From IMG/VR virus record IMGVR_UViG_3300005289_000052, positions 62,001-126,000 of that record: 64,000 nt of DNA; one strand, written 5' to 3'. This document shows, piece by piece, positions 4,556 to 46,976 of this stretch (its first letter is position 1; each line of letters opens with the position of its first letter). The position numbers and the translations under genes are program-made. This DNA is from a virus. The notes beneath the pieces are model-generated. The model was not told where the DNA came from, searched no databases, and saw only the letters and a program-made list of their open reading frames with translations.

Positions 4556-4897
4556 TTATGCCCCTTCTTTACCAAGCTTCATGTGCAGGGCGAAGTATGC
4601 CTGGCGCACAGCGTCTTCCAACGTGTGAGACCAGACCGTAACTTCTTCATCGTCGTCATTAATCGGCAGACAGGTGATCTGTACAATGCGATCGACTTCC
4701 AACATTGCCTGAGCCACGTCGTCGGAGATCCCAGCGATCGTTTGTAGATGCTCGATGGCATCTTCAATAGTCGTGTTGGGAGCATCACGGTACTCGTTAA
4801 CCAGGATGGTCAGAGAACCCGAGGTGAGATCCTGGATGTCAGCCAGCATCACTTCCAGAGAAAGCTCAGGCGCTTCTGGAGCGCTGTTGTCCATCAT
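4556..4897 (-). CDS. Hypothetical protein, 113 aa
   Basis: This small acidic, mostly helical protein is unknown to me. It is the last gene of a minus-strand run and overlaps the gene before it by 4 bases (ATGA), so the two are probably translated together. No motif or membrane segment is visible. Confidence 0.75.
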   Translation of the reverse strand: MMDNSAPEAPELSLEVMLADIQDLTSGSLTILVNEYRDAPNTTIEDAIEHLQTIAGISDDVAQAMLEVDRIVQITCLPINDDDEEVTVWSHTLEDAVRQAYFALHMKLGKEGA

Positions 4898-5259
4898 TCT
4901 TCAGCACTCGCTTGACGGACTACTGTCGGACGCATGAAGATTTCCTCGAGGTAGTCGTTGGTTTCCTCAGCTTCTTCCAGCGAACCGGAATTGCAGAGGT
5001 AGTCCAGAACGCGGAAGGTGACATGGAAGGTATCGCCACCAGGCTTACCCTTGACCACATAACCCATGCCTTGCAGCTTCTTGATCATGCGCCCGATGCT
5101 GACGTCACGGATGCTGTCGGTCTTGGTCAGACCCCGCAGTTCAGCACGAGTGAATTCCAGGGTGATGTCGTTGGTGACGCCGAGTTTGATCAGCAGTTCA
5201 AAACGATCACACATCTTTTTGTTAACGTGGTCAGCCAGTGCTTTGGTGCTAAGAGCCAT
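4894..5259 (-). CDS. Hypothetical protein, possible winged-helix fold
   Basis: The 121-residue protein has helix-rich N-terminal segments followed by IGRMIKKLQGMGYVVKGKPG, which looks like the recognition helix and wing of a small winged-helix DNA-binding domain. That reading is an inference from pattern only. The ribosome site AAGGA lies in a small palindrome TCCT-CAGA-AGGA upstream of the start. The stop overlaps the next start by 4 bases. Confidence 0.75.
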   Translation of the reverse strand: MALSTKALADHVNKKMCDRFELLIKLGVTNDITLEFTRAELRGLTKTDSIRDVSIGRMIKKLQGMGYVVKGKPGGDTFHVTFRVLDYLCNSGSLEEAEETNDYLEEIFMRPTVVRQASAEE

Positions 5260-5280
5260 TGTTACTTTCCTTCTGAGGAT

Positions 5281-5849: not shown

Positions 5850-5907
5850 ATTCGCCTCCTAAGGACTAAGTTTATAGAGAACAGTTTTAGATTAGTCTAA
5901 TCTGTTC

Positions 5908-5932
5908 ACCTAGGTAATATACACTTGAGATT
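5908..5932 (-). promoter_or_regulatory. Early-type phage promoter (TATATTAC)
   Basis: On the minus strand this site reads CTCAAGTG-TATATTAC-CTA. TATATTAC is the motif known from phiKZ early promoters, used by the virion RNA polymerase. It lies about 65 bases before the gene at 5849, and related sites occur near 18130, 26298, 29754, 37568 and 53777. Confidence 0.75.
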
Positions 5933-15097: not shown

Positions 15098-15203
15098 GGA
15101 TTTACTCTCCTTAGAGCAGATGCCGTAAGGATGGGAATAAAACGCCCCCATCCTTATTCTTTTTAAGAACAGGTTTATTTAGGCAATTGATAGCCCGGTG
15201 CTG

Positions 15204-15653
15204 TCAGGTTTTACTGAGGTAATCCCGATCGTTGTACTCATCGAGGGGTGCATAGTAGCGTTCCGTCTCTTGGTACGACTCGAGGCGATGAACGATACTG
15301 TGGACATCAGCACCCCACTTCCAAAGAGTATCCTCGTCTTGTGGTAGACGATTCAACAGTTTGGCGAGGTTGGAGAAGGCCGACATTGGAGTATCGCCTT
15401 CGGTGACTGGGAACCACTCGAACCTTTCTGCGACGAAACGCCAACCATCATCATCGCAGATCATCCGAGTCATTAACCACGGTTCATCCCGAGGTGCCAA
15501 GAAAGCCACATAGCCTCCGCCGTAGCGGGGACTGGTGACTACCAAGGTCATCCCGTGGCCGTTCTGTACTCCCTCTTTCTTAAAGCCGTGTGCACCCACC
15601 AAGAGGTTGAAGAGTTCGAGTTTCGTCTCAGCTTTCTTGAAGAGTTCGCTCAT
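15204..15653 (-). CDS. Hypothetical protein, 149 aa
   Basis: This is a soluble, acidic protein of unknown role. The start at 15653 overlaps the stop of the upstream gene as ATGA, the usual pattern in this window. Confidence 0.75.
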   Translation of the reverse strand: MSELFKKAETKLELFNLLVGAHGFKKEGVQNGHGMTLVVTSPRYGGGYVAFLAPRDEPWLMTRMICDDDGWRFVAERFEWFPVTEGDTPMSAFSNLAKLLNRLPQDEDTLWKWGADVHSIVHRLESYQETERYYAPLDEYNDRDYLSKT

Positions 15654-17341
15654 TTCGGGTTTCTCAGTTTCGGGTCCCATTGGGTTCCTTCCAGTAAGTA
15701 GTCAAGTTTCCCTTCTGCTGCTTCTTGCATAGCAGCTTCTTGGTCTGCAATTTCTTCAGGGGTAGGTTCTACAGGAGGCAACCCGACATCACTGGTGTCT
15801 TCCAGATCGCCGTGTTTCTCCCAGTGTTCCCGGAGAGGATTTGGTCGAGTGCGGGTAAACAATCCTAGTGCTTCATTGTGACCGCGTTCGTCTTCATGCT
15901 TGTTGTAGCCCGGAGGCATGGCTTGGCGTTCACGGATCTTCGCAAGCTCTGCCGAAGCGTCACCTACTTCCCCAGCCGTGAGGTCTGGTTTAGGTAGTAA
16001 TGACTTAGCTGCTGAGCGAGATTCTGCGATTTGTTCCTCCAACGCTTCCAGTCCCAGATGGTACTCGTGGTAGATAGCCATGGTTTCGTCACGACCGCGA
16101 CCTTGGGAGGTTTGCTTGGTGATCTCGTGGAATTGCTGGATCAAAGGCTTTGCCCCTGTTGCTGGCGGCAGTTTTGCGATGTGATCCAACTTGTAGCCAT
16201 CACCATGCTGGGAGACATGGGGTGGGAATTCGTAATCGTCAGGGATAACCCGTACTTCTACGCCTTTGTCCACGATCTGACGCTCAAGTGGTTTCTCTTT
16301 AGGTTCGCCCAGATGGTACTCGACATTTCCTTCACTATCCAGAGACTCACGGATCAGAATCCCGTAGTCCCGGCGGTTTGGGGTGTCGTCTACGCGAGTA
16401 CTAGGTGCGTCGTCGAGCACGCCTTCGATGGTTGGCTGCTCTCTGTTACCCAGCGCTATCCCCATGAAGTCGATATCCCGCAGATCACGCTTAACGCCAT
16501 CAGCACCCACAGCGTAAACACCCGTGACTTTGGGTAGGAACTCGCCTTCTGCACCCTTTTCATAAGGACTGGTCAGGGAGATGTTGAAACTAGGTTCGCT
16601 ACCTGGATCAACACCCAACAAAACAACGTGGCTGGGTTCACCATCTTTGAAGACAGGAGTCAGCGCAGGCAGTGCTGCGTCCAGTGCTGCTTGTTGTTCT
16701 GGGGTCATGCTGCTCTTCTTGATGGTGCGGTCCAGTGCACCTTCTTCGTAATGGCGAAGACGATCCATGGAACCTGGTGCGAAGAAGCGATGTTTGCCAG
16801 AATGGTGCTTGGTGTAGTCAATACCTGACTGAACCATGGGAACCCCACCGAACATCGGGACTTCACTATCAGGCGGAACTACATCGAGGTCTTCAATAGG
16901 GACCCGGAAAGCCTTGGTGAGATCCACGTTCCCATCTGCGGTAATGTAACCCTGAGCTTGCAGGCGTTTGAAATCGCGCTCAGAGAAGATATACGGACCG
17001 TCCTCGATAGTGTCAGGGATGGAGATCGATAAAAACCCAGAGGTTGGGCTTCCAAAGATATTGCTATCGATATCCCCACAGCGACCGCGCAACAGCGTGA
17101 CCTGATCGAGTTCACCTTGGCTAATGAGGCCTCGGTCAAAAAGATCTTGTAGCATCGGGTTGACTGGGGTTGTCTTACGAGCTTCGTCCAGTTGCGCTTC
17201 CAGCCACTGGAATTCTTGCCGCATGGCGTAATCGTTGTACCAGAAGTAGAATTCGTCGATTACCTGAGTCAGAATGTGATCTGGCAGACCAGTCATGTTG
17301 AACGGATCGAACTTTGGAATTTGGTGAGCACCGATTTTCAT
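15650..17341 (-). CDS. Large unknown protein, 563 aa
   Basis: No family is evident. Residues 11-28 carry FDPFNMTGLPDHILTQV, nearly repeated in the gene upstream (17370-17711). The middle is soluble and beta-rich; the last 120 residues are charged and probably disordered. The ribosome site lies in the hairpin GGTCT-AAGG-AGATC (17346-17359). Confidence 0.8.
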   Translation of the reverse strand: MKIGAHQIPKFDPFNMTGLPDHILTQVIDEFYFWYNDYAMRQEFQWLEAQLDEARKTTPVNPMLQDLFDRGLISQGELDQVTLLRGRCGDIDSNIFGSPTSGFLSISIPDTIEDGPYIFSERDFKRLQAQGYITADGNVDLTKAFRVPIEDLDVVPPDSEVPMFGGVPMVQSGIDYTKHHSGKHRFFAPGSMDRLRHYEEGALDRTIKKSSMTPEQQAALDAALPALTPVFKDGEPSHVVLLGVDPGSEPSFNISLTSPYEKGAEGEFLPKVTGVYAVGADGVKRDLRDIDFMGIALGNREQPTIEGVLDDAPSTRVDDTPNRRDYGILIRESLDSEGNVEYHLGEPKEKPLERQIVDKGVEVRVIPDDYEFPPHVSQHGDGYKLDHIAKLPPATGAKPLIQQFHEITKQTSQGRGRDETMAIYHEYHLGLEALEEQIAESRSAAKSLLPKPDLTAGEVGDASAELAKIRERQAMPPGYNKHEDERGHNEALGLFTRTRPNPLREHWEKHGDLEDTSDVGLPPVEPTPEEIADQEAAMQEAAEGKLDYLLEGTQWDPKLRNPK

Positions 17342-17369
17342 TATAGATCTCCTTAGACCTTGAGTTTAG

Positions 17370-17711
17370 TTAGCCGATGATAGCGCCGAAACGCACCTCA
17401 CCTTCTGGGGATTGGTTGACCCATGACTGGATGAACTCACGCTCCATAGCGGAGTAGTAGTCATGTACCACTTGTTTCTCGATATGTTCAGGTAAACCCG
17501 ATTGGTTGAACGGGTCAAACCCAACCATTACCACCCGTGATACTACATTTCGCAGGGGAAGAGCTTTCGGATGACGGAAGCGAACCGCTTTGATCTCGGG
17601 GAATTTTATTCCAGCTTCTCGGAACTCCTTGGCTTTACGTTCGAGGTAAGCTTTGTCTGGTGGGAAGCCTGGGTTGTATACACCATTTTTCCAGCCGCGC
17701 TCGTTAGCCAT
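17370..17711 (-). CDS. Hypothetical protein sharing the FDPFN motif
   Basis: This 113-residue protein contains GFDPFNQSGLPEHIEKQVV in its second half, matching the N-terminus of the next gene. The shared motif suggests that both bind the same partner or arose by duplication. The function is unknown. It overlaps the gene before it by 8 bases. Confidence 0.75.
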   Translation of the reverse strand: MANERGWKNGVYNPGFPPDKAYLERKAKEFREAGIKFPEIKAVRFRHPKALPLRNVVSRVVMVGFDPFNQSGLPEHIEKQVVHDYYSAMEREFIQSWVNQSPEGEVRFGAIIG

Positions 17712-18081
17712 TGAAAGTATCTCCTGGGTGGTCTACAGAAAGGGATGGGGTTATTGCGTAAGGTTGACCTTGGATCACAACCAAACCAGGAGTAGGTTTG
17801 GAATGGTGGAGTAAGGCCTCACGAACTTCCAGGACATCCGCGTCATCGTAAACGGAGTCAGGGAGTTCGAAGTCTTTCTTTAGTATGTTACCCAGACGCA
17901 CTACCTCGTCCAGGTCCATGTTACCGACACCGGCTTTGATCTGATCCATCACTCGACGCTGGACGCTCTCAGGGAATTGATCCCCGGCAGCCTTACGTAC
18001 CAGTTCGATGATGTGACACCGGGCGACGAACTCTACAACCGTACCCAGTGTGAAATTCTTGAAGTGCTTCATCGGGTCCAT
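17704..18081 (-). CDS. Hypothetical protein, first gene after an early promoter
   Basis: This 125-residue helical protein is unknown. It is the first gene downstream of the early-type promoter at 18118-18142. Its ribosome site GGAG lies in a perfect hairpin GATCT-ATGG-AGATC (18086-18099). Confidence 0.78.
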   Translation of the reverse strand: MDPMKHFKNFTLGTVVEFVARCHIIELVRKAAGDQFPESVQRRVMDQIKAGVGNMDLDEVVRLGNILKKDFELPDSVYDDADVLEVREALLHHSKPTPGLVVIQGQPYAITPSLSVDHPGDTFNG

Positions 18082-18117
18082 AATTGATCTCCATAGATCG
18101 AAAGGTTAGGTAGCTCA

Positions 18118-18142
18118 TTGGGGTAATATATACTTGAAATTC
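18118..18142 (-). promoter_or_regulatory. Early-type phage promoter (TATATTAC)
   Basis: The minus strand reads TTTCAAGTA-TATATTAC-CCC, very close to the site near 5920. It lies about 45 bases before the gene starting at 18081 and should drive the minus-strand run towards 13657. Confidence 0.75.
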
Positions 18143-22568: not shown

Positions 22569-23198
22569 TTAGGACGGCATCAGTTGACAACGGTGAGACA
22601 GGTAGTAGAGGTTCGGATCTCGATTTGGATGTTCGCCACGCAGGGCGATATTGAACCGCACACCTTCCACCCGCTCGATCTTGTAGGTGTGTCGCATGGC
22701 TTTCTGGAGACAGAGGATCAGGTTGAAGCAATCCTGTTTGTCCGAAGGCAGGCGAGAGAAGCCACGATCAATGTCGAGGAACTTCGCTAGGTGCGCAGCA
22801 GCCCAGTGACGAATGGTGGAGTCGTACTCCATGTCAGCGATTTCTGGGCGATCGGCACACAGGTAATCATAACCGTGATTCACGGCATCCCACGTAGCGC
22901 GACGAGGGAGCATTACGATGTGGTGATCGAAGTCGTCCTGGGCGTGGAAGAACGCACCACGAATGTGGATATTGCGGTTGGAGAGGCAGGTGGGGTAGCG
23001 ACGAATGTGGTTCGCCAACTCTTCTTCTACACGGGCCTGAACCCGATCAAAGGTGGTGACATTATGTACACGGGCCTCGGGCCGAGCCAACTTGTTGTAG
23101 TGACTGTGTAGTTCTGCTAAACGAGCCAGATCTATTTCGTTCAGGATGTCACCACCGTCAACAGACAGGGTGATGTCAACACGGTTAAAACCAGCCAT
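22569..23198 (-). CDS. Hypothetical protein, 209 aa
   Basis: This is a soluble protein of unknown family and the last gene of the 31-kb minus-strand run. A DDFDHHIVML segment is metal-binding in look, but no fold could be assigned. The ribosome site is in the loop of CCCT-AAGG-AGGG (23205-23216). Confidence 0.78.
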   Translation of the reverse strand: MAGFNRVDITLSVDGGDILNEIDLARLAELHSHYNKLARPEARVHNVTTFDRVQARVEEELANHIRRYPTCLSNRNIHIRGAFFHAQDDFDHHIVMLPRRATWDAVNHGYDYLCADRPEIADMEYDSTIRHWAAAHLAKFLDIDRGFSRLPSDKQDCFNLILCLQKAMRHTYKIERVEGVRFNIALRGEHPNRDPNLYYLSHRCQLMPS

Positions 23199-23722
23199 TA
23201 TTTACCCTCCTTAGGGCATTGCATGAATTGAACGTCAGCGTGACCACCAGCGGTCACAGTCGGCACGATGTAGTACATGGTGTGGTGCTTGATGATCGCG
23301 TAAGACTGACCCACGTTAGCCCGCATCTGGTGATACAACGAGTCGGTCAACTTGATGCGATACTTGCGGGAACCGATCAACAACAGGGAAGTAGCACCTG
23401 CACCCAACTTCTCGTCTTCGATCTTGTCGTCCATCAGGTAGCCGCCGTAAACCACAGTCGCCGGATAGAGACCGACTGTCTTACGGTTGGTGCGCGACAT
23501 CACCATCGCCTGGAACTCACCCACGATTTTATCGTTAGGGTGTGCTTGGACGTCAATAACGCCTTCCTCGGGTTCTGGCTTTGGTGTCCCGGCACGCTTC
23601 TCGTCCAGAACCTTTTGAAGCATTGCGATCTGCTCTTCGAGAGCTTTCTCGGTCCAGTCTTTGTAATCGTGTCCACAACGACACGGAGTATCCCAGCATT
23701 TAACGCAGTCAGACATTCCCAT
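23198..23722 (-). CDS. Hypothetical protein with N-terminal Cys cluster
   Basis: The first 20 of 174 residues hold C-x2-C-x4-C-x-C followed by His, a likely zinc-binding knuckle. Residues 25-45 are helical and a soluble beta domain follows. The role is unknown. It overlaps the genes on both sides. Confidence 0.75.
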   Translation of the reverse strand: MGMSDCVKCWDTPCRCGHDYKDWTEKALEEQIAMLQKVLDEKRAGTPKPEPEEGVIDVQAHPNDKIVGEFQAMVMSRTNRKTVGLYPATVVYGGYLMDDKIEDEKLGAGATSLLLIGSRKYRIKLTDSLYHQMRANVGQSYAIIKHHTMYYIVPTVTAGGHADVQFMQCPKEGK

Positions 23723-24815: not shown

Positions 24816-25331
24816 TTACTTTCCCTTCTGAGGGAATCGTTTATGCAGCTCTTCGATAATTGCAGGGATCGACAGGATATGAACCGGTGCCGGACCTTCG
24901 CGCAATGTATCTTTAGCCAGACAGGTTGCTTTGCGGATGTCATCATCGTGAACATCCATCGCGGCGTACAGTACTTCTTCGGTTTCCACGTAGTTACCGC
25001 GAATACCCACCACACCCTGACCCCACGGAATTACCCGCTTGGCCAAGCTTGCTTTCTTCCCAACCGATGACTCAGCCCGAGTCCACTCTTCAATGCGACC
25101 GGAGTGGGTAATCAGCCAGCCACGCAGCGCGCCTTCACCACAGTTCTCGAAGGAAGTATCACCATCGAGGTAAGCGATCAGGTTGAAGGCGTTAGCAGCC
25201 AACGGAACCAGAAAGCCATGCGGTGTGTACAGTGCATCAACAGACAACTTCATGCGCAGTCCGTTTACGCGGTAGAGATCCGAGATGAATGCGATCTCGT
25301 TACCGTTCATCAGGATAAAGTTGTCGTTCAT
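24816..25331 (-). CDS. Hypothetical protein, 171 aa
   Basis: The family of this soluble protein is unknown. It starts by ATGA overlap with the gene upstream, which looks like an Ntn hydrolase. Alternating strands early on and a helical end are all that can be said. Confidence 0.75.
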   Translation of the reverse strand: MNDNFILMNGNEIAFISDLYRVNGLRMKLSVDALYTPHGFLVPLAANAFNLIAYLDGDTSFENCGEGALRGWLITHSGRIEEWTRAESSVGKKASLAKRVIPWGQGVVGIRGNYVETEEVLYAAMDVHDDDIRKATCLAKDTLREGPAPVHILSIPAIIEELHKRFPQKGK

Positions 25332-25912
25332 TTGCGAACCCTAGTTTTCTTCTGGGTGGGTACGGTGCGAGGAAACTTCTTCAAGTCAGCCAGGTTGTAG
25401 AAATCACAACCCATCCCACACGTTGCTGTTTGCTTGCCCAAGCGATTAATGATCTCAACCGCACCCAGGCCTGCCTTGTGGTAGGTGTTGGCGAAGTTGA
25501 TCTCAGAACCGGTGCAGTGGAACCGATTGATGTCCTCGGCTCGAACGTTCAGTGCTTTCTCGTCTTTGTCCCACGAGATGAACCAGCAGTTCTCAGCGGT
25601 GACTAAATACAGACGCCTTGCGTTCCCGACGGCATAACCGGTCAGAATCATGGCTTCCTCATCGGTGAACTCCAATGGGTTGCCTTCGTCGTAGCCCAAA
25701 TAAAAAGCAGTGAGTCTGGTCGAGAGCAGGGTCTTAATCAGCGCCACGTCAGTCTTGTGGGGATCGGAACCCACGACACCAATGACGAAACGTTTCTCGT
25801 CTTCGATGTGCAACTTGTCACCGATCTCGCGATACTCAACACGAGTACCACAGTTGACCAGCATTTGTTTATCGGCGGCAATAACGCCATCCTTTATTAC
25901 GACCATCGACAT
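25328..25912 (-). CDS. Possible proteasome/HslV-like Ntn hydrolase
   Basis: The first 60 of 194 residues read like the start of a proteasome beta or HslV subunit: a short strand, GVIAADKQM in place of the usual G-x-A-D motif, a later GDKLHI, and RFVIGVVGSDPHKTD in place of the conserved IG-x-AG segment. The usual N-terminal catalytic Thr is not present after Met; Ser2 could replace it only if the initiator Met is removed. It could therefore be a peptidase or an inactive homologue. The ribosome site is in the loop of ACTC-AAGG-GAGT (25920-25931). Confidence 0.5.
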   Translation of the reverse strand: MSMVVIKDGVIAADKQMLVNCGTRVEYREIGDKLHIEDEKRFVIGVVGSDPHKTDVALIKTLLSTRLTAFYLGYDEGNPLEFTDEEAMILTGYAVGNARRLYLVTAENCWFISWDKDEKALNVRAEDINRFHCTGSEINFANTYHKAGLGAVEIINRLGKQTATCGMGCDFYNLADLKKFPRTVPTQKKTRVRK

Positions 25913-25980
25913 CTACTTGACTCCCTTGAGTAACGGCATAGAGAGTGAGGCTACGTGGGCCTCACTCCTTTGAGCCTAGC

Positions 25981-26241
25981 TTAGGCCTGGACGCGTTCTT
26001 CCAGGCAGCCACTGCGCGGTGCCTTCTTGGCAGGCGCGTAGCTTGGGTGTTCCGAATCTTTCAGGCTACCGTCAGCCAGGAAGTTCAGCTTGGTGCCGAC
26101 CACGGTATCTTTCGGCAGTTGACCGTCGCCGATTTCCAGCTCGATCAGTTCGTTCGAAGGGTTCATGACGGTGAGCTTGGTACCAGCGACTTTAACGAAA
26201 GTCAGGACGGTGTCTTTTTCCAGCGCTTGGGACAATTTCAT
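25981..26241 (-). CDS. Hypothetical protein, first gene after an early promoter
   Basis: This 86-residue, beta-rich soluble protein is unknown. I chose ATG 26241, with AAGGA upstream in a CCTTT/AAAGG hairpin, because the early promoter at 26286-26310 would lie across a start at 26286. Confidence 0.75.
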   Translation of the reverse strand: MKLSQALEKDTVLTFVKVAGTKLTVMNPSNELIELEIGDGQLPKDTVVGTKLNFLADGSLKDSEHPSYAPAKKAPRSGCLEERVQA

Positions 26242-26285
26242 GAACAGCTTTCCTTTTCTTAAAGGTTTTAGGTTGAGGTATTGCA

Positions 26286-26310
26286 CTAAGGTAATATGTA
26301 CCTCAGATTC
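26286..26310 (-). promoter_or_regulatory. Early-type phage promoter (variant CATATTAC)
   Basis: The minus strand reads CTGAGGTA-CATATTAC-CTTA, one base away from TATATTAC and with the same flanks as the other sites. It lies about 50 bases before the gene at 26241. Confidence 0.65.
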
Positions 26311-26312
26311 TT

Positions 26313-27167
26313 TTAATTCGAGCTGACCGGATCTTCCTTCGCCAGATCTGGACGGTAGTTCCTTTGGATCAACTTGAACTTGAGGATACGACGAATCCCT
26401 TTCACTTCACCATTAGGATAGACCATCATCCCGGTACGCTCTGGATCGGTGTAACGGATGAACACCACGGGATGCTCATTACCTTCCTGAATCAAATCAC
26501 CTTCTTTGAAGTGGTCTGCTTTCAGGTACTCGTTGTATTCCCGAATGAGCTTCTCTTCCCGCTCTTCTCGGAAAGACTTGTAATATGGATCAGGCTCCCA
26601 ACTGGCGGACACGTTCGGGATGATACCGGCTGTCCCGTAGATTGCGTAATAGGTGTAGGCGTAGTAGTGATTTACGTCACGTGCCTGTTGATGCAACCCA
26701 ATGATCTTGAACGGCAGCTCTGGCCAACCCTTGTCTTCGGAGTGTCGCAGTTTATGGAACACCCCGGTGGTGGTCAGATAGATAGGATTGTTGGAGCGAG
26801 CACAGTGACCCAAGAACAAACGCTTACCACGGTACTCTTCCCGGTCTTTATCCATCCGGTGAAAGTTATCCGCCAGCTTACGATTGAACTCATGGTTGTG
26901 CAGGATCAGGTCGTGATTACCTGCGTCTATAAACTCTACCCGTGCCTTGGAAGGAATCTCAGTGGCAAAGTTACCCTCTCGATCCGGCATGAAGTAGTGC
27001 ATTCGATTTTCTTTGAAGTCGAACTGTGTAACGTAGTAGATCTGATCACCACCCAGTTCGGTAATGTCTTGGTGTACCCGAATGCGGACAAAGCTTCCAC
27101 ACTCTTTCAATTCACGTGCAGCTCGCCGCAAATCGTTCTTGAACAGTTGGTCCCACAGAGAGCGCAT
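26313..27167 (-). CDS. Hypothetical protein, 284 aa
   Basis: This large soluble protein, rich in Tyr, His and Phe, is unknown. A palindrome TCCTTAAGGA (27177-27186) contains its ribosome site. It is the last gene of the unit upstream of the promoter near 26298. Confidence 0.78.
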   Translation of the reverse strand: MRSLWDQLFKNDLRRAARELKECGSFVRIRVHQDITELGGDQIYYVTQFDFKENRMHYFMPDREGNFATEIPSKARVEFIDAGNHDLILHNHEFNRKLADNFHRMDKDREEYRGKRLFLGHCARSNNPIYLTTTGVFHKLRHSEDKGWPELPFKIIGLHQQARDVNHYYAYTYYAIYGTAGIIPNVSASWEPDPYYKSFREEREEKLIREYNEYLKADHFKEGDLIQEGNEHPVVFIRYTDPERTGMMVYPNGEVKGIRRILKFKLIQRNYRPDLAKEDPVSSN

Positions 27168-27188
27168 AAGTTTCCTTCCTTAAGGAGT

Positions 27189-28999: not shown

Positions 29000-29557
29000 T
29001 TACTCCGGCATGATCAGGTTGTTACGAGGAACCAGCAGGTACATATCACGGCCCCAGCTTTCAGGGTTCATGGCAAAGCCGACGTGTTCTGGTTGACGGA
29101 TCACTTTACCAACCAACGACTTGTCCACAGAGAACGACTTGGTTTGTGGGGCTTCACCTTTCTCGCCGTAGCGATAGTCAATAACCTGTTGAGCCTGGAA
29201 CACGCCGAGGTATTCGAAGCCTGCGCGAGACAGTACGATCATTACCGCAGCAGTGATCTCGGCACTGTAGTTACGCAGGTCCATCTGGTTCATGATGGCA
29301 GAACGAGACTCCGGGTAGCCGAAGTAACAGTTCATGCCTTCCTTCTTGAACACCGCCAGATTGGTCGCACCCTGCGGATAACTGATCGCTTGCAGGAAGC
29401 CACGATCGAACGCACGGAAGAACACGTCATCCGCTGCCCAATCCAGAATCACATTGTTGATGAACTGGTTGGGGTCGAACGGCTCCATTCCTTTATAGTC
29501 ACGGTAGTCACCATGCATCTGGGCCAGTTCAACTACTTTTTGGCTGAGCTTCTTCAT
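29000..29557 (-). CDS. Hypothetical protein, 185 aa
   Basis: This soluble protein has no family known to me. Its start overlaps the end of the 62-residue gene upstream by 29 bases; GGAG is 10 bases before the ATG. Confidence 0.76.
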   Translation of the reverse strand: MKKLSQKVVELAQMHGDYRDYKGMEPFDPNQFINNVILDWAADDVFFRAFDRGFLQAISYPQGATNLAVFKKEGMNCYFGYPESRSAIMNQMDLRNYSAEITAAVMIVLSRAGFEYLGVFQAQQVIDYRYGEKGEAPQTKSFSVDKSLVGKVIRQPEHVGFAMNPESWGRDMYLLVPRNNLIMPE

Positions 29558-29717
29558 TTACTTCTGCTCCATCTTTGGATTGAGGGGTTTGATCGCCCAA
29601 GATAACTTGACGCCTTCTGTCAACCAGACCAGCAGCATCAATGATTTCTCGAACGAGACTCCGGGTAGACTGGTAGTTTTTACGCCAGTGTTCCAAACGC
29701 TCTTCAAGAGTAGCCAT
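29529..29717 (-). CDS. Small helical protein, first gene after an early promoter
   Basis: This 62-residue protein has a helical start and a charged, disordered end. It lies about 25 bases after the promoter at 29742-29766. The function is unknown. Confidence 0.65.
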   Translation of the reverse strand: MATLEERLEHWRKNYQSTRSLVREIIDAAGLVDRRRQVILGDQTPQSKDGAEVNEEAQPKSS

Positions 29718-30726: not shown

Positions 30727-30987
30727 TTAAGACCTCGTCTTAGCACAGACAATTTCACGGGTCATCCTGCCGGTGTAACCCGACCCACCGCCACTAGACC
30801 CCACTGACGCGCTCACGGTGGTGATGAAGGTGTCGTTCTTTTCGGTTACGTCGTTACCCAACACCTGACGGGCGTAGGCGTGACATTCCTTCATCGAGTA
30901 CATCGGGATGTGTTCTTGTGATACTGCGTTACCAGCCCCATTAAAAATGAAGATGGTGGAGATTGCAAATACGTTTGGGATTGCCAT
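30727..30987 (-). CDS. Small exported protein, 86 aa
   Basis: An N-terminal hydrophobic stretch (VFAISTIFIFNGAGNAVS) looks like a signal peptide without a strong basic start. The mature part has two Cys and a Gly/Ser-rich loop, and could sit in the periplasm. The ribosome site lies in TCCTT-CAGA-AAGGA (30998-31011). Confidence 0.65.
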   Translation of the reverse strand: MAIPNVFAISTIFIFNGAGNAVSQEHIPMYSMKECHAYARQVLGNDVTEKNDTFITTVSASVGSSGGGSGYTGRMTREIVCAKTRS

Positions 30988-31018
30988 TTTGTTTCTTTCC
31001 TTTCTGAAGGATATAAAA

Positions 31019-32146: not shown

Positions 32147-33466
32147 TTAAACGATGATGTGAGGGATGAAGCGTTCGTTCTTCCACGACAGAGTCGGGGA
32201 TTCGAACTCGCGGATACACAGGGTAGCCGCAGTCGAGTCGAGCATGTCATCACGGTCTTCCACGGCGTCAGGCACCATGAACATACCGATGATGAAGTTG
32301 TTGCGCCCTTCGACTTGACCCGGTGGACAGTACGCCTGATACACACAGTCATCGGTGTACGGACCTTCGGATTCGTGAACCAGTTCGTTCTCGTCACCGA
32401 ACACCTTGACGTTGGACGACATGCGACCAACCTTAGGCTTCTGCACGTACGACATACCCGAGTTGATGAACGGCTCAGCCGAGACGTAGGTAGCCAAGGT
32501 AGGAACATCGTCCCACTGGCAACCGTAGCCTGCTGGATCGCTTTCACGGAGGTAAGTGATGTACGCCCAGATGCCTTTGTTCGAGGCAAACCAACGCCAC
32601 GCAGGTTCGAGGAACGTTACGTTGTTGGCCCAGTACTGCCACTCTTTGTAGCCTTGCGGGAAGTTTTCAACCATCTCTTCCCACGGCGACAGAGCAAACA
32701 CCACGTCCAGACGCCGATCACCGATCAACCATGGTTTCTCACGGCAAGCGTGGTCGTAGTCGATGTCGGAGAAGTCAGCGAACAGGGTGGTATTGTTCTG
32801 ACCCAGGATCTGAGCCAGCGTTTCCGAAGTTGCCATGTCTTCGAAACTGTCCTTCTCGAACAGCACGCCGACGTAACCCGGAACCTTGCCCATTTCTTCG
32901 AGTTCGTGGATCAGCGTGTGCCAGAACATGTTGAGCTGGTCTTCCTCACCACCGGTGAACTGTTTACACAGCTCGGTTTGGAGGTTGACCGATTCGAACA
33001 ACATGGTCGGGGTATCGCCGTTGAACTCGTAGATACCTTTGACGGTTTCAGTCGCAGGATCAAACGCCGCATCGAAACGACCGTAGAGCGACTGGCGCGC
33101 CGAGGTGTGCGTACGGAAGGTGTGCTTCGCGTAGTCGATGAAGTACGGGTGTTTACGCAGGAAGTCGCAGCCCATGAACTCCATGATGGTGCTCTGGCTT
33201 TCATTGAACAGACGACCTACGGCGTCAACCAGTTGAGCGTAAGCACGCTCGAACGTGGTTTCCAGTGGAGCACACGACTCTTGACGGATCGTGTAAAACG
33301 GCAGCGCGGCCTGGTTGTCGAGGAAGTAACGGAAATAATCAGTTACATCTTCTTTGAACGTGGCATCGGCGATTTCGCCTTCACGATAAAAACCTTGGGA
33401 CCACGGCAGCTCTTCAACCATGATTTTGTTCAGGTTGAAGTTGATAGGTTTCAGGATGCACTTCAT
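32147..33466 (-). CDS. Glutathionylspermidine synthase-like ATP-grasp (YgiC-like)
   Basis: This 439-residue protein resembles the GSP_synth family, which in E. coli includes the synthetase half of GspSA and the stand-alone YgiC. It keeps GIYEFNGDTPTMLFE (family pattern E-x-N-x-D-x-P-T), FLEPAWRWFASNKGIW (EP-x-W-x-x-L-x-NK) and a late TYVSAEPFINSG (family: EPF). Family members form peptide-like bonds to glutathione or similar substrates with ATP. The true substrate is unknown. It follows a YgiB-like lipoprotein gene by 2 bases, the same pairing as E. coli ygiB-ygiC. Confidence 0.82.
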   Translation of the reverse strand: MKCILKPINFNLNKIMVEELPWSQGFYREGEIADATFKEDVTDYFRYFLDNQAALPFYTIRQESCAPLETTFERAYAQLVDAVGRLFNESQSTIMEFMGCDFLRKHPYFIDYAKHTFRTHTSARQSLYGRFDAAFDPATETVKGIYEFNGDTPTMLFESVNLQTELCKQFTGGEEDQLNMFWHTLIHELEEMGKVPGYVGVLFEKDSFEDMATSETLAQILGQNNTTLFADFSDIDYDHACREKPWLIGDRRLDVVFALSPWEEMVENFPQGYKEWQYWANNVTFLEPAWRWFASNKGIWAYITYLRESDPAGYGCQWDDVPTLATYVSAEPFINSGMSYVQKPKVGRMSSNVKVFGDENELVHESEGPYTDDCVYQAYCPPGQVEGRNNFIIGMFMVPDAVEDRDDMLDSTAATLCIREFESPTLSWKNERFIPHIIV

Positions 33467-33468
33467 GT

Positions 33469-34074
33469 TTAGCTACTCGCCGATCCGTGAGAAGACGCAC
33501 GTGCACTGCTCCCCGACATGACACCGGTGGAGCGAGAGGACATGACGGTCGAAGACATCTTCGACTGGAAGTTAGGAGACGAACGAACCGAGGAACGAGC
33601 CTGGTTCATCATCATGGTGCTGTTTGCCGAAGTGGCAGTGTTCATGCGACGACGACGTTCGTCTTCGGCGTACGTACTGCGACCAACCGGCTGGTATTGC
33701 TTCGAGTAGTTGTTCATACCACCCATGCTGTTCATGGCCGAAGCCAACATGTAACCGGCAGCCATACCACCGAGCAGTGGCCAGACCGTGTCGGAGTTTT
33801 GACCGTCAGCGGTTTCCTTCACGATGTGGACCTGCTTTTCACCCTTTTCGTTGTAGGTGAAGTACACGTCTTTTACAGCGGGGTCTTTCGATTGGAGTTC
33901 AGCGAGGGTTTTCTTACGATCTTCCTCGTCGGACGCCAGAGTTTGACGGACCTGCTTTTGCGCTTCGTCTTCAACAAAGGCACGCTCTTCGTCAGCAGAA
34001 GGTTGTGCTGGTTCGCAACCGACCAAAGCGGTGGCGGCAGCAATTGCCAACAATGAGAGTTTAGTTTTATCCAT
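33469..34074 (-). CDS. Lipoprotein, YgiB/DUF1190-like
   Basis: The first 20 of 201 residues form a lipoprotein signal ending in the lipobox ALVGC (C20); Glu at +2 predicts the outer membrane in the host. A VWPLLGGMAAGYMLASAM segment and a Ser/Arg-rich disordered tail recall E. coli YgiB. I chose ATG 34074 because it gives a good signal peptide and has AAGG upstream. It comes directly before the YgiC-like gene, so the two likely act together in the envelope. Confidence 0.7.
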   Translation of the reverse strand: MDKTKLSLLAIAAATALVGCEPAQPSADEERAFVEDEAQKQVRQTLASDEEDRKKTLAELQSKDPAVKDVYFTYNEKGEKQVHIVKETADGQNSDTVWPLLGGMAAGYMLASAMNSMGGMNNYSKQYQPVGRSTYAEDERRRRMNTATSANSTMMMNQARSSVRSSPNFQSKMSSTVMSSRSTGVMSGSSARASSHGSASS

Positions 34075-34105
34075 GATGTAGCCTTGAGAGAAAATAAAAG
34101 GGAAA

Positions 34106-34127
34106 GGGGAGAGCCGAAGCCCTCCCC
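34106..34127 (-). terminator. UUCG-loop terminator
   Basis: GGGGAGGGC-TTCG-GCTCTCCCC (one mismatch) is followed on the minus strand by a T-rich tail (TTTCCCTTTTATTTTC). It separates the thymidylate synthase unit from the lipoprotein gene. Confidence 0.78.
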
Positions 34128-34135
34128 ACGCAGAA

Positions 34136-34381
34136 TCAAGTAGCCATCGGAGAGATTGAGTCAATGACGATTACTGCTTGTCCTGGCTCTTTCAACTTTT
34201 GGCGATAGACTCGAAGAAAAGCTTCGGCGTCAAATGGTGGTTGGTTCGCAAACCGTTGGCTCATACGTTCCAGTACCTCAGCAGTGTGCTGTGGCGTGGT
34301 GTCGTAGAAACCAGCAGTGATATCCACCTGCACTTGATTCTTGCGCCCAGTATTTTGAAACAGATCGATGACCTTCGACAT
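34136..34381 (-). CDS. Hypothetical protein, 81 aa
   Basis: This small soluble protein is unknown. It starts by TGATG overlap with the thymidylate synthase stop and ends just before a terminator, so it is the last gene of that unit. Confidence 0.75.
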   Translation of the reverse strand: MSKVIDLFQNTGRKNQVQVDITAGFYDTTPQHTAEVLERMSQRFANQPPFDAEAFLRVYRQKLKEPGQAVIVIDSISPMAT

Positions 34382-36069
34382 CAGACGGCTGCCTTGGGGA
34401 ACTCGATTTTTCCAGAATGCTTATACCCAACGATCTCGATGTCTTCCATTTTGAAATCGAAGATGTTCTTGATGTTGGGGTTCAAACGGATGGTTGGACG
34501 GGAATCTTCCACAGGCTCCTGATCCAACCACTTGAGTACCGCAGGCCACTGGTTCTCGTAGATGTGGCAATCGCCGCCGGTCCAAGTGAAGGTATCGGCG
34601 GCGTGACCAGTTACTTGAGCAACCATGTGAGTCAGCATTGCGTATTGTACAACGTTGAACGGATGACCCAGCGGTACATCGTTACTGCGCATGTACAGAT
34701 GCGACGACAGCTTGCGGGTCGGGACCTTGGCATCGTCCAAGAACTGGAAGACTTCAGGATGACGCTGGAACTCGTGTTCGTGACGACGATCATCGTGCAT
34801 CACGGCCATGTTCAACACTTCTTCGGACATATGCTCGAAGCCAGCAGGCTTGTACGTACCCAGCCACTCCAGTCGCTCACGCACCGACATCGGCTTGGAG
34901 AAGAACTGACAGAAGGTGTGGCAAGGACGCAGCGCCATCTCTTCCAGCTCAGCCACGTTCCATGCGGTCAGGATGATACCCCGATCGTCAGGATTGTTGA
35001 TGAGTTGGTCGATGATCTTCTTCACCTGGTCGATCTCGCGACTCACGACGTAGGTTTTACCCTTACCATGAGTTTCGATGTAATCGCTGGAGATCTCACC
35101 GTGGAAGTCATACCCATGTTCAGACAACACGCGGTATTCTTCCTCGCTCACCAAACGAGTGTCATTCCAGTAGCGCCACTGATGCTGGTAGATCTTCGGC
35201 AGTTCGCCAGCAGTGATGGTCTGCGTAGCGATGTCCTTGGACTCCGCGAAACGGTAGAACAGTTCGAACAGCGGAGAGTCTTCAGGCAGCGTTTTCACGA
35301 TGGCTTCAAACAACGGGAGCAGCCACTTGTTGTTGGTGGAGCGCTCGTCGGCCAACAACTCACGGATAGCCGCCGCTGACTTCCAGCGAGTATCTTCGAC
35401 AAAGACCATGACGAAGTCGCGCAACAGGTTTGCCTGAGCAAACGCGTTGAGCAATTCACCCCAGGTGAGGTGACGCCATTCGGCAGTCGTCGCCTTGACC
35501 CACGAATCCCAAATACCGATGTTGTGCTTCTTGAGGAAGCGAACGTTGGTATCGCCCGACAGCATCCAGAGCAACTCGCCCTTGATGCCGAAGTTCCAGT
35601 TGAACTTGGTGGAGATCGACGGCAGTTGACCCATGGAGATGTCCACGGTGTAAGACTGCGAGTTGATCGCACGGGAACGCACCCCGGTACGAGTCTCACT
35701 GTCCACACCCTGCTCCATGATCTTGAGCACCAGCTCGCGGACGTGGTAATCCACGTTGTACGAACTAGGGTCTGGCAAACCAATGATGGCTTTCCCTGGA
35801 GACCACTGGCGCTTCATGCGCTGTTCCAAACGCCACAGCTTGGCCGAAACCTCAGGACGGAACTCGAAAGGAATCCGAGCGTTGTCCAGAGCGCAGATAG
35901 CGTCACCTACCTGCATCGGGTCGTTCAAGTCAGCTAAACACGCTTGGTAGTTACCCGACTCGGCCAGTAACGACATACGCTGGGAGAAGGAATAGAAGTT
36001 CAGCGAGCTGTTGTCGTGATCTTCAATCAGCTTGCGCGCAGTGCGCATACGTTCGTTCAAGTCTTTCAT
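34381..36069 (-). CDS. thyA: Thymidylate synthase, extended form
   Basis: The enzyme methylates dUMP to dTMP with methylene-tetrahydrofolate. Conserved motifs include TRTGVRS, IYQHQWRYW, ALRPCHTFCQFF with the catalytic Cys (C383), SNDVPLGHPFN and GGDCHIYEN. At 562 residues it is about twice the usual length: about 110 extra residues precede the core, and an insertion of roughly 100 lies between the NIGIWDSW segment and IYQHQW. In the Arg pair that normally binds phosphate (RR in E. coli), the second residue is Gly (NPDDRG, R363-G364). The core otherwise appears intact. A hairpin CTGT-AAGG-ACAG holds the ribosome site. Confidence 0.88.
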   Translation of the reverse strand: MKDLNERMRTARKLIEDHDNSSLNFYSFSQRMSLLAESGNYQACLADLNDPMQVGDAICALDNARIPFEFRPEVSAKLWRLEQRMKRQWSPGKAIIGLPDPSSYNVDYHVRELVLKIMEQGVDSETRTGVRSRAINSQSYTVDISMGQLPSISTKFNWNFGIKGELLWMLSGDTNVRFLKKHNIGIWDSWVKATTAEWRHLTWGELLNAFAQANLLRDFVMVFVEDTRWKSAAAIRELLADERSTNNKWLLPLFEAIVKTLPEDSPLFELFYRFAESKDIATQTITAGELPKIYQHQWRYWNDTRLVSEEEYRVLSEHGYDFHGEISSDYIETHGKGKTYVVSREIDQVKKIIDQLINNPDDRGIILTAWNVAELEEMALRPCHTFCQFFSKPMSVRERLEWLGTYKPAGFEHMSEEVLNMAVMHDDRRHEHEFQRHPEVFQFLDDAKVPTRKLSSHLYMRSNDVPLGHPFNVVQYAMLTHMVAQVTGHAADTFTWTGGDCHIYENQWPAVLKWLDQEPVEDSRPTIRLNPNIKNIFDFKMEDIEIVGYKHSGKIEFPKAAV

Positions 36070-36077
36070 ATCTGTCC

Positions 36078-36281
36078 TTACAGAACTTTCACGGCGGTGG
36101 TGTCACGAATGATCGTGCGGCCACGGCTAGGGATGTTGTTGTGGTCCATGGCTTTCACCAAGGCTTGTTCGTAGGTGTACCCGTCGTTCTCGTACGCCTG
36201 TACTTCTTGCCGCCAGTTCGCTTGCTGCTTGAAGAGCTGGATACGTTCTTGCAGGGACAGCTTGCGATGTTTAGGCAGCAT
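36078..36281 (-). CDS. Hypothetical protein, 67 aa
   Basis: This small, basic, helical protein is unknown. The ATG at 36281 has GGAGAAG upstream and overlaps the previous gene by 11 bases. It lies 9 bases before thymidylate synthase. Confidence 0.7.
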   Translation of the reverse strand: MLPKHRKLSLQERIQLFKQQANWRQEVQAYENDGYTYEQALVKAMDHNNIPSRGRTIIRDTTAVKVL

Positions 36282-37077
36282 ATTTCTTCTCCACGTGACC
36301 ATAAAGGAAGTTAAGGGCTTCAAAGAACACCATACCGAGATCGGCGTACTGGAAGTTTGTGCGTGGAACGTCGTCGGAAGAACCGATTACCAGTTCCCAC
36401 TCTTGATTGACTTCATCCCACTCAAGAGAATGGGACAGTCGCAGTTCTCGAGTGAGTTTGTGAACTTCTTTGTAGAAGTCGCCAAAGGCTGGGTGACTCG
36501 GACCATCCATTTTTGGCAAGTGGTCAGGTTTGGCCAAGTTCCAACGACGGGCGTGCAGCCAGACGTCAGGACGTGGTTCAACACTACCGGTCCAGCCGAT
36601 GGTGAAAGGATCGCTGACCTTCAAGCCCAACTTACCAGCCAATTCGCCCATGGCGTCAGCCGGTTTAGCGGCCTTCATGTTTGAGAAGCAGGACATCATG
36701 TCGACGGCCTGTTCGTGACCTGCGTCGATGTCGTCGTAGATGTAGGCGTTCTGGAGAGCGTCTACCAATTGTTCCAAACGACCGATGTGGTCGACACCTT
36801 CTTCGAGGGTGATGATCCCGACCAAGCACGGTTTGCAGTCACGCTCGTTGGAGTAGTGACCCAGCAGCGAGTTCAGTACTGTCAGATGGAACATCAACAT
36901 CCGGCCAGCGAAGTTATCGGTGTAGCAAGTCACCACCCGTACTGGGTAGGGATTGCCTTTGGAGTCTACCAGCGCTTCTTCACCCAAACGATTCGTCTGC
37001 CATTTGAAACCTGCCAGACGCTCGTCCGATGGAAGACGGGACAGGACACCTGGGATAACGGTTGCGATTTGTTTCAT
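36271..37077 (-). CDS. Hypothetical protein, 268 aa
   Basis: This soluble protein is unknown to me. It shares a pattern with the gene upstream (LVDALQNAYIYDD against FVDALQVCFIYES), so the two are distant paralogues. I chose ATG 37077, with AAGGTG 9 bases upstream; a GTG at 37089 would leave it without one. Confidence 0.75.
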   Translation of the reverse strand: MKQIATVIPGVLSRLPSDERLAGFKWQTNRLGEEALVDSKGNPYPVRVVTCYTDNFAGRMLMFHLTVLNSLLGHYSNERDCKPCLVGIITLEEGVDHIGRLEQLVDALQNAYIYDDIDAGHEQAVDMMSCFSNMKAAKPADAMGELAGKLGLKVSDPFTIGWTGSVEPRPDVWLHARRWNLAKPDHLPKMDGPSHPAFGDFYKEVHKLTRELRLSHSLEWDEVNQEWELVIGSSDDVPRTNFQYADLGMVFFEALNFLYGHVEKKYAA

Positions 37078-37098
37078 GTTTGCATACACCTTCTGAGG

Positions 37099-37515
37099 TT
37101 ATAGAACGAAATGAGCGATGGGATTACCCAACAGATAATCCATCATGGACTCTTTGTGCACGAATACGTCTTTACCGCTTTCGTAAATGAAACACACTTG
37201 GAGCGCATCTACGAAACTTTCCAGCAGACTGCTAATCTGACCTACGTGTTGATACGTAGCGATATAGACAGCCGATTCCCAACCCTCGGGGATCAGTTGA
37301 TCTTTGAGTATCGGGGAGTAACGACCGACTGTCGCCACAATCAGGCCGGTGTTCTTCACGCGAGTTACTGAGATAGCAATCTCATTTGTGCGCCCTGTTT
37401 CCCCATCAGTCAATTCCAGGTTCGCACCAAGTGGTTGCACTTGACGGAAACCTTCGATGTTCTGCATGTGGTAACGAAGTAATTGAGGGCTAAGGATACA
37501 TTCTACTTTTAACAC
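37099..37515 (-). CDS. Hypothetical protein, first gene after an early promoter
   Basis: This 138-residue soluble protein is a distant paralogue of the next gene. I chose the GTG at 37515, with AAGGTGG upstream. An ATG at 37548 lies almost on the promoter (37558-37580) and has no ribosome site, so it is probably untranscribed or unusable. Confidence 0.7.
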   Translation of the reverse strand: MLKVECILSPQLLRYHMQNIEGFRQVQPLGANLELTDGETGRTNEIAISVTRVKNTGLIVATVGRYSPILKDQLIPEGWESAVYIATYQHVGQISSLLESFVDALQVCFIYESGKDVFVHKESMMDYLLGNPIAHFVL

Positions 37516-37557
37516 TTCTCCACCTTCTGAGGGAAAATTGAACGGCATTACTTCAGC

Positions 37558-37580
37558 TAGATGATATACGTCTGTAATAC
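37558..37580 (-). promoter_or_regulatory. Early-type promoter, TATATCATCTA form
   Basis: The minus strand reads CAGACG-TATATCAT-CTA, very like the site near 29754. It would start transcription close to 37550, before the gene at 37515. Confidence 0.55.
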
Positions 37581-37603
37581 ATTTAAATCAGGGCATAAAG
37601 GCA

Positions 37604-37615
37604 GGCCCGAAGGCC
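37604..37615 (-). terminator. Short UUCG-loop hairpin
   Basis: GGCC-TTCG-GGCC on the minus strand follows the gene ending at 37632. The stem is short but the loop matches the other hairpins. Confidence 0.5.
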
Positions 37616-37631
37616 CACCCCTATTTAACGC

Positions 37632-39344: not shown

Positions 39345-39404
39345 GAAAAGGTCCTTTTCAGGTTAACGGTTATTCAACACAGGATCACTCGTCCCTGTTA
39401 GAAA

Positions 39405-46471: not shown

Positions 46472-46708
46472 TCACGACACGATGACGTCTCGAATAAACG
46501 GGATGTGGAAGACCATGCTGAAAATTAACGCCATTATCCACAAGACGAACTTGCAGAACATGATGTTACCCAGCTCGTGACGGAACGACCAGCGAACAGC
46601 ATGCCAGAACTCCGACCAGTCATCCTGACAGCGAGCATACGCACCGAGGTAGAAACCGCAGTTGAGAGCGATAAAGATGATAAGGAACGTCAGGAGGAAA
46701 CCGATCAT
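46472..46708 (-). CDS. Small membrane protein, two TM segments
   Basis: The two hydrophobic segments (IGFLLTFLIIFIALNCGFYL and FCKFVLWIMALIFSMVF) fill most of this 78-residue protein. ATG 46708 overlaps the upstream stop as ATGA; AGGAGG is upstream. The function is unknown. Confidence 0.7.
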   Translation of the reverse strand: MIGFLLTFLIIFIALNCGFYLGAYARCQDDWSEFWHAVRWSFRHELGNIMFCKFVLWIMALIFSMVFHIPFIRDVIVS

Positions 46709-46950
46709 GGGAAGAACTTCGTGTAGTTGATATAAAGGAGGACCAGCAGGAACGGAACGTGGAGTACGACAATGCACATCCACAGGCGAACAATACTGAA
46801 CCCACGATTTTGATGCCACAACATTTCGATCTGTGCTTTCCACTCAGGCCAATCAAAGCCTAAGTCAACGTGGAAAATACGGAACGAGGCAAACAGAAAC
46901 ACAACAGACCACAACAACAGCAGGACATACGTTGGGATTTCACCAGCCAT
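46705..46950 (-). CDS. Small membrane protein, two TM segments
   Basis: This 81-residue protein has two hydrophobic segments (VLLLLWSVVFLFASF and LWMCIVVLHVPFLLVLLYI). ATG 46950 has GAGGAAG upstream. It forms a pair with the following membrane gene. Confidence 0.68.
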   Translation of the reverse strand: MAGEIPTYVLLLLWSVVFLFASFRIFHVDLGFDWPEWKAQIEMLWHQNRGFSIVRLWMCIVVLHVPFLLVLLYINYTKFFP

Positions 46951-46976
46951 TTTCTTTTGCTTCCTCAAGCATAGAA

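Follow-up and report, generated by a model that had tools for sequence, protein, structure and literature searches.

Hairpins at the ribosome-binding sites of a jumbo phage

At position 15105 of the DNA analysed here, the Shine–Dalgarno (SD) core AAGG of a minus-strand gene lies in the loop of a short stem, and the initial annotation listed comparable stems before other minus-strand starts. Are these hairpins selected as RNA structures, and what would they do to the genes that carry them? The window, meaning the whole stretch of 64,000 nucleotides under analysis, comprises bases 62001-126000 of G000, a viral record of 243,669 bp. Its genes include a phiKZ-type major head protein, a DnaB-like helicase and an NAD-dependent ligase, and elsewhere in the record, at 182010-183725, there is a homolog of chimallin (phiKZ gp54, E = 5e-37), the criterion for Chimalliviridae. 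Because it encodes chimallin together with phiKZ-type genes, G000 is probably a nucleus-forming jumbo phage of this family; the building of a nucleus is established for other chimallin-encoding phages.

The IMG/VR relatives were ordered by capsid protein identity: 97% for G006 and G007, about 80% for G002, G003, G004 and G005, 66% for G009 and G010, and 60% over a partial match for G013; more distant relatives lie at 45-53% and 33%. The records are metagenomic throughout, this clade being found only in that form. The related genomes are not independent, and replicates were counted as three lineages (the G000, G002 and G009 groups). Genes were called with a purpose-written codon-usage model, which missed the true site at 15105.

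Hairpins around the SD exceed chance

The six main sites of the initial annotation are all present on the minus strand (Table 1); the one given at 36072 is real, with a stem one pair longer than noted. Among the close variants it proposed, that at 27177 belongs with the main sites (class A, defined below), and those at 26252, 30998 and 37088 are hairpins with NAGA loops (class B) and not class A. The variant at 5857 is a 3-bp remnant in G000, its G006 and G007 orthologs having 5 bp. The one at 39344 falls in neither class: it is another palindrome, with the SD in its 5' arm. Our survey added the sites at 5268, 29568 and 46958, as well as an upstream UAANCU element.

Table 1. Hairpins and associated elements in the window (window coordinates)
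Feature	Sequence	Position	Strand	Context and orthologs
Class B hairpin	TCCT-CAGA-AGGA	5268..5279	-	gene 4894-5259; G002 ortholog class A, CCTTA-ATGG-TAAGG
Putative early-promoter element	ATATTAC	5914..5920	-	
Class A hairpin, 4 bp	CTCT-AAGG-AGAG	15105..15116	-	before ATG at about 15096; same in G006, G007 orthologs; GCTCT-RAGG-AGAGC in G002, G003, G004, G005 orthologs
Class A hairpin, 5 bp including one G.U	GGTCT-AAGG-AGATC	17346..17359	-	gene 15650-17341; G006 counterpart AGTCT-AAGG-AGACT
Upstream element	TAAACT	17363..17368	-	3 nt 5' of the 17346 hairpin
Class A hairpin	GATCT-ATGG-AGATC	18086..18099	-	gene 17704-18081; GATCT-NNGG-AGATC also precedes similarly placed genes in relatives
Upstream element	TAACCT	18103..18108	-	3 nt 5' of the 18086 hairpin
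Putative early-promoter element	ATATTAC (in AGTATATATTACC)	18123..18129	-	upstream of the 18086 hairpin
Class A hairpin	CCCT-AAGG-AGGG	23205..23216	-	gene 22569-23198; orthologs GAACT-AAGG-AGTTC (G002), TGAACT-TTGG-AGTTCA (G003)
Class A hairpin	ACTC-AAGG-GAGT	25920..25931	-	gene 25328-25912 (HslV-like, PHROG 1040); compensatory orthologs GCTC-AAGG-GAGC in G002, G003, G005
Class B hairpin	CCTTT-AAGA-AAAGG	26252..26265	-	gene 25981-26241; TAGA loop in G006, G007
Putative early-promoter element	ATATTAC	26291..26297	-	upstream of the 26252 hairpin
Class A hairpin	TCCTT-AAGG-AAGGA	27173..27186	-	gene 26313-27167
Class B hairpin	TCCA-AAGA-TGGA	29568..29579	-	gene 29000-29557; class A TGCT-ATGG-AGCA in G002, G003, G005 orthologs
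Class B hairpin	TCCTT-CAGA-AAGGA	30998..31011	-	gene 30727-30987
Class A hairpin	TCTGT-AAGG-ACAGA	36071..36084	-	gene 34381-36069 (thymidylate synthase); G005 CCTCT-AAGG-AGAGG
Class B hairpin	ACCT-CAGA-AGGT	37088..37099	-	gene 36271-37077; conserved in G006, G007
Palindrome, neither class	GAAAAGG-A-CCTTTTC	about 39345-39360	-	directly before ATG of gene 37632-39344
Class A hairpin	TGCTT-GAGG-AAGCA	46958..46971	-	gene 46705-46950; same in G006, G007

Across 229 leaders of G000, 7 of the 94 AAGG cores occupy an exact tetraloop closed by at least 4 Watson–Crick pairs, against 0.40 expected when the flanks were permuted between leaders (p < 0.0002); with at least 3 pairs, the same permutation gave 1.8 expected and 11 were observed. 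Shuffled leaders do not match this count either, since shuffling within leaders produced a mean of 0.49 such tetraloops and a maximum of 4 in 2000 shuffles. Of the AAGG cores in leaders, 7.4% lie in such a tetraloop, compared with 0.54% of AAGG elsewhere in the G000 genome. For NNGG loops on stems of at least 5 bp, 12 were found in the G000 leaders versus about 0.5 expected, a rate some 25-fold that of the rest of the genome. The excess persisted when starts were called without any SD information (8 versus 0.34 expected, Poisson p about 3e-9), which rules out an artefact of SD-guided start calls. The arms of class A hairpins are diverse, with 10 distinct arms in 12 hairpins of G000, 14 in 18 of G002 and 7 in 15 of G009, and a single repeated sequence copied around the genome is thereby ruled out.

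When all pairings in SD-aligned leaders were scanned without bias, the register described in the initial annotation ranked first. No excess was observed in leaders for AGGA or GGAG as the hairpin loop, for loop sizes of 3 and 5-10, or for loops without G at position 3; tetraloops alone were enriched.

Two classes of hairpin with covarying arms

In class A, a 5-bp stem carries an NNGG loop and the SD spans the loop and the 3' arm. The scan of all leader tetraloops revealed class B, a 4-bp stem with an NAGA loop, typically TCCT-NAGA-AGGA, in which the SD core lies within the 3' arm. The loop has exactly 4 nt, with G at position 3 and variable positions 1-2. The chance of a Watson–Crick pair in class A is 0.61, 0.71 and 0.74 at pairs 3, 4 and 5 and 0.28 at pair 6, and in class B it is 0.53 and 0.56 at pairs 3 and 4 and 0.22 at pair 5. 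Such sharp stem limits would not be expected from a purely thermodynamic effect. The G009 group has NNGA loops as a minor class (4 versus 1.2 expected in G009, none of them NAGA).

The initial annotation had remarked that pairing is kept in stems of different sequence, as if structure were selected. This is borne out by the permutation statistics, by recurrence in two further lineages and by compensatory changes between orthologs. Among 15 ortholog pairs of G000 and G002 whose arms are not identical, 7 retain the hairpin with altered arms, compared with a base rate of 16%. Ortholog pairs show double compensatory changes (for example, ATGCT-CAGG-AGCAT to GTCCT-ATGG-AGGAC), and classes A and B replace each other, as at 5268 (Table 1). 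Few G000-G009 orthologs carry hairpins (9), and none of these retained the hairpin. We take the covarying, non-consensus arms as the main argument for pairing at the RNA level.

An upstream element is coupled to the hairpin

The sequence TAANCT was found in 31.6% of hairpin leaders versus 5.6% of the others (G000, G002, G003, G005 and G006 pooled), so that the exact UAANCU is present in only about a third of hairpin leaders. In the G000 and G002 groups, some 3-4 nt separate it from the stem downstream; its place is taken in the G009 group by a C-rich stretch. The element starts at −14/−15 from the loop in classes A and B alike, and the SD registers of the two classes differ by 3 nt. Its distance to other landmarks shifts between the classes, from a mode of −16 to −19 when measured from the SD GG and from a mean of −27.5 to −30.3 when measured from the AUG. 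The constant spacing to the loop indicates that element and hairpin form one unit.

The hairpin is restricted to one clade

The count of NNGG hairpins with at least 5 bp exceeds expectation in the relatives as well: 18 versus 0.50 in G002, 13 versus 0.32 in G006, 14 versus 0.34 in G005, 11 versus 0.40 in G007, 9 versus 0.28 in G003 and 15 versus 0.62 in G009. In total, the excess occurs in seven related records; it recurs at 66-97% capsid identity and is absent below about 55%. Nine other jumbo phages (G008, LucasX, SNUABM_54, FLC9, Goslar, phiKZ, G011, G012 and G015), most of them sampled in part and several over about half their length, gave no excess, SNUABM_54 being borderline at the 4-bp level (4 versus 1.8 expected). 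The hairpin as a feature of all chimallin-encoding phages is ruled out by these nine, over the parts sampled.

The hairpin genes appear to be early and accessory

In G000, 35 of 244 leaders score, about one in seven, some of them by chance and these mostly 4-bp ones; the minus strand holds 32 of the 35 genes. Only 4 of the 35 hairpin genes had homologs in the distant jumbo phages sampled, versus 102 of the 209 others (p = 3e-5), and searches of the hairpin genes against Pfam and PHROGs gave few matches. An ATATTAC element, which we take to resemble the phiKZ early promoter, lies upstream of 15-20% of hairpin genes versus 2-6% of other genes. The scarcity of distant homologs, the strand bias and this early-promoter-like element suggest that the hairpin genes are early, accessory and host-directed. 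Longer alignments gave AATCTCAGATAcATATTACYnnnGTGAATAG as the likely early-promoter consensus (examples in Table 1). The hairpin module is also present at genes inside operons where no promoter is visible. A role as a promoter or transcript 5'-end element is disfavoured by these genes and by the position of the putative early promoter, which is further upstream.

What the hairpin may be for

The initial annotation offered two readings of the hairpin, the first being that the loop displays the SD for ribosome capture. As a common principle this does not hold: the SD GG has a predicted pairing of 0.40 in class A leaders, 0.86 in those of class B and 0.75 where there is no hairpin, and yet class B replaces class A between orthologs. 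Because classes of opposite SD exposure share UAANCU and interchange, exposure is unlikely to be the shared function, and class B rules out the SD in the loop as the sole principle. The second reading, in which an RNA-binding protein or endonuclease that controls translation targets the hairpin, agrees with its exact geometry and with the element upstream.

The geometry is fixed, specific to the clade and anchored to itself and not to the SD or the AUG, which suggests a specific RNA-binding partner. We therefore consider it probable, on balance, that the hairpin belongs to a cis-acting RNA module under selection in early-type genes and that a clade-specific factor reads it, which would control these genes together; the frequency of such hairpins over the SD, far beyond chance, points to an unrecognised switch on this set of phage genes. 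In one clade of jumbo phages that encode chimallin, the module is present in about 30-35 early-type leaders of each genome, as a hairpin overlapping the SD (5 bp with NNGG, or 4 bp with NAGA), to which the G000 and G002 groups add the single-stranded UAANCU. The computation itself shows that the module exists beyond chance, covaries, has this geometry, is coupled to UAANCU, has a limited phylogenetic range and is biased towards accessory genes. A phage-encoded RNA-binding factor, either a translational repressor or a leader endonuclease, would read it; a repressor bound at the hairpin would block the ribosome-binding site, and a cut there would destroy it. We infer a negative effect because the partner would compete with the ribosome, and an early timing from the promoters and the gene content. 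A set of early proteins would thereby be controlled together and most likely switched off, as with RegA or RegB in T4. More tentatively, these leaders may represent a previously undescribed phage-wide post-transcriptional regulon, in which dozens of early mRNAs bear a composite tag (UAANCU and a hairpin over the SD) that a new family of RNA-binding proteins or RNases would read, controlling translation after exit from the early vesicle or the phage nucleus.

The hairpin could also tune translation with no trans-acting factor, either by insulating the SD from longer pairings or by slowing and metering initiation through its own folding. The lower predicted pairing of the SD G's in class A than in leaders without a hairpin agrees with insulation, and isolated hairpins are weak enough for the ribosome to open them (mean about −2.3 kcal/mol, formed about half the time in predicted ensembles); in addition, local structure helps initiation at T4 genes 25 and 38 (PMC3014915). 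However, the SD is buried in class B, which nevertheless takes the place of class A in orthologs, selection is seen only for 4-nt loops and for exactly 4 or 5 bp, and intrinsic tuning gives no reason for the coupled UAANCU or for the restriction to a single clade. For this reason, we regard it as rather unlikely.

The endonuclease form of the preferred explanation is a branch of it, and the two probabilities overlap. Here, an RNase of the RelE/YoeB/RegB fold would cut G-R-A-G at the apex, where the first three bases are loose and the fourth is paired, and would inactivate early mRNAs. The class A apex has the corresponding arrangement, with GG in the loop, A forming the U-A pair that closes it (87%) and G pairing with a C (69%), and class B offers GAAG in the same frame. 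T4 RegB likewise targets the SDs of early genes, where it cuts GGAG, and its best S1-independent substrate, with GGA unpaired and the fourth G partly constrained, is similar to class A (PMC3014915). RNA structure, on the other hand, usually shields a site from RegB, and the enzyme needs GGAG, a motif that many of the present hairpins do not contain: class A includes GGAA, GGAC and GGGA, and class B presents GAAG/AGGA. Moreover, a cut in class B would leave the SD intact, and the RegB profile (PF10715), which a diverged RelE-fold enzyme could escape, matched in none of six genomes at E <= 1. We judge a RegB-like site unlikely, and slightly more so than intrinsic tuning.

It is improbable that the signal acts at the DNA level, as dyad-symmetric sites bound as a duplex by a phage repressor or transcription factor. 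In the inner stem, G.U shows no excess and at pairs 3 and 4 is below expectation, as such sites would have it, and the commonest arm pair, GTTCT-N4-AGAAC, is frequent notably in G009 (7 of 15); but G.U does occur at the terminal pair, the arms vary widely and covary, which a homodimer half-site does not require, and the sites lie at the SD even inside promoterless operons. Chance with selective reading by the initial annotation, which the SD would assist by itself supplying the closing T-A and often the next pair, is practically negligible and already refuted, the permutation, shuffle and genome-background controls all being exceeded 10- to 40-fold in three lineages.

Comparison with known systems and search for the factor

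We regard these leaders as a variant of putative phage translational operators. The operators of MS2 coat, T4/RB69 gp43 and T4 gp32 are likewise structured sites at or near the SD that are read by a phage protein, but they are single and mostly autoregulatory, unlike this genome-wide set with variable stems. CsrA/RsmA sites are also small hairpins with the SD GGA near the apex, and CsrA sites keep ANGGA in a hexaloop; the GGA is exposed in their loop, whereas class B pairs it in the stem. The lambda nut site consists of a short single-stranded boxA followed by the 5-bp boxB hairpin, an order of elements also found here, but it serves antitermination at operon heads and has a pentaloop, in contrast to a tetraloop at the SD of each gene. 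T4 RegA offers a similar phage-encoded control: it represses some 30 early mRNAs by acting where their translation is initiated (PMC3014915). Its selected RNAs are A+U-rich and require no hairpin, unlike the precise hairpin with UAANCU described here.

Neither RegA (PF01818) nor a CsrA homolog was matched in any of six phage genomes; a CsrA could also be supplied by the host. Of the protein families present in both the G000 and the G002 groups, 83 lack a match among the sampled outgroups, and the G009 group has 26 of these as well. Two small basic proteins were folded as candidates, G000_202 and G000_172, giving low-confidence models (pLDDT of 62 and 67) and no significant PDB matches. Clade-specific basic proteins, likely first candidates for the factor, are encoded at L008 18244-18540, L007 8708-9067 and L009 12315-12713. 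Rfam gave no match above the gathering score within the window, and searches of the open-access literature turned up no account of such leaders in jumbo phages. The consulted passages of the reviews PMC12908238 and PMC13282480 describe no cis-acting translation signal for chimalliviruses.

Chimalliviruses separate transcription from translation, and the signal provides a testable entry to the choice, timing and shut-off of cytoplasmic mRNAs. Common to some 30 leaders per genome, with covarying stems and a defined geometry, it could also be used as bait in the search for the factor. In addition, it is a further example of a regulatory structure built around the SD, here in two interchangeable registers.

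Other observations on the genome

Chimallin is preceded by a small, basic, clade-specific hairpin gene (L008 18244-18540, minus strand; locus L008:15986-18540, record about 181986-184540). This upstream gene has a 7-bp class A hairpin, TTCAACT-TAGG-AGTTGAA, and the chimallin leader itself is without one. In the window, the thymidylate synthase (34381-36069, minus strand, 562 aa) and a nicotinamide phosphoribosyltransferase (39956-41914, minus strand, 652 aa) are both much longer than their PHROG profiles, which suggests an intein or a large insert in each. The window also contains a glutathionylspermidine synthase-like gene (32147-33466, minus strand), here in a phage.

On the plus strand at L003:12345-19366 (record 32345-39366), genes for four radical-SAM-like proteins, two of them with a Pfam match, surround a gene for a Gly/Ala/Asn-rich protein of 177 aa (L003 13402-13935). 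The G002 and G009 groups retain them all, the other jumbo phages sampled gave no match, and together they may constitute a phage-borne cluster for peptide or protein modification.
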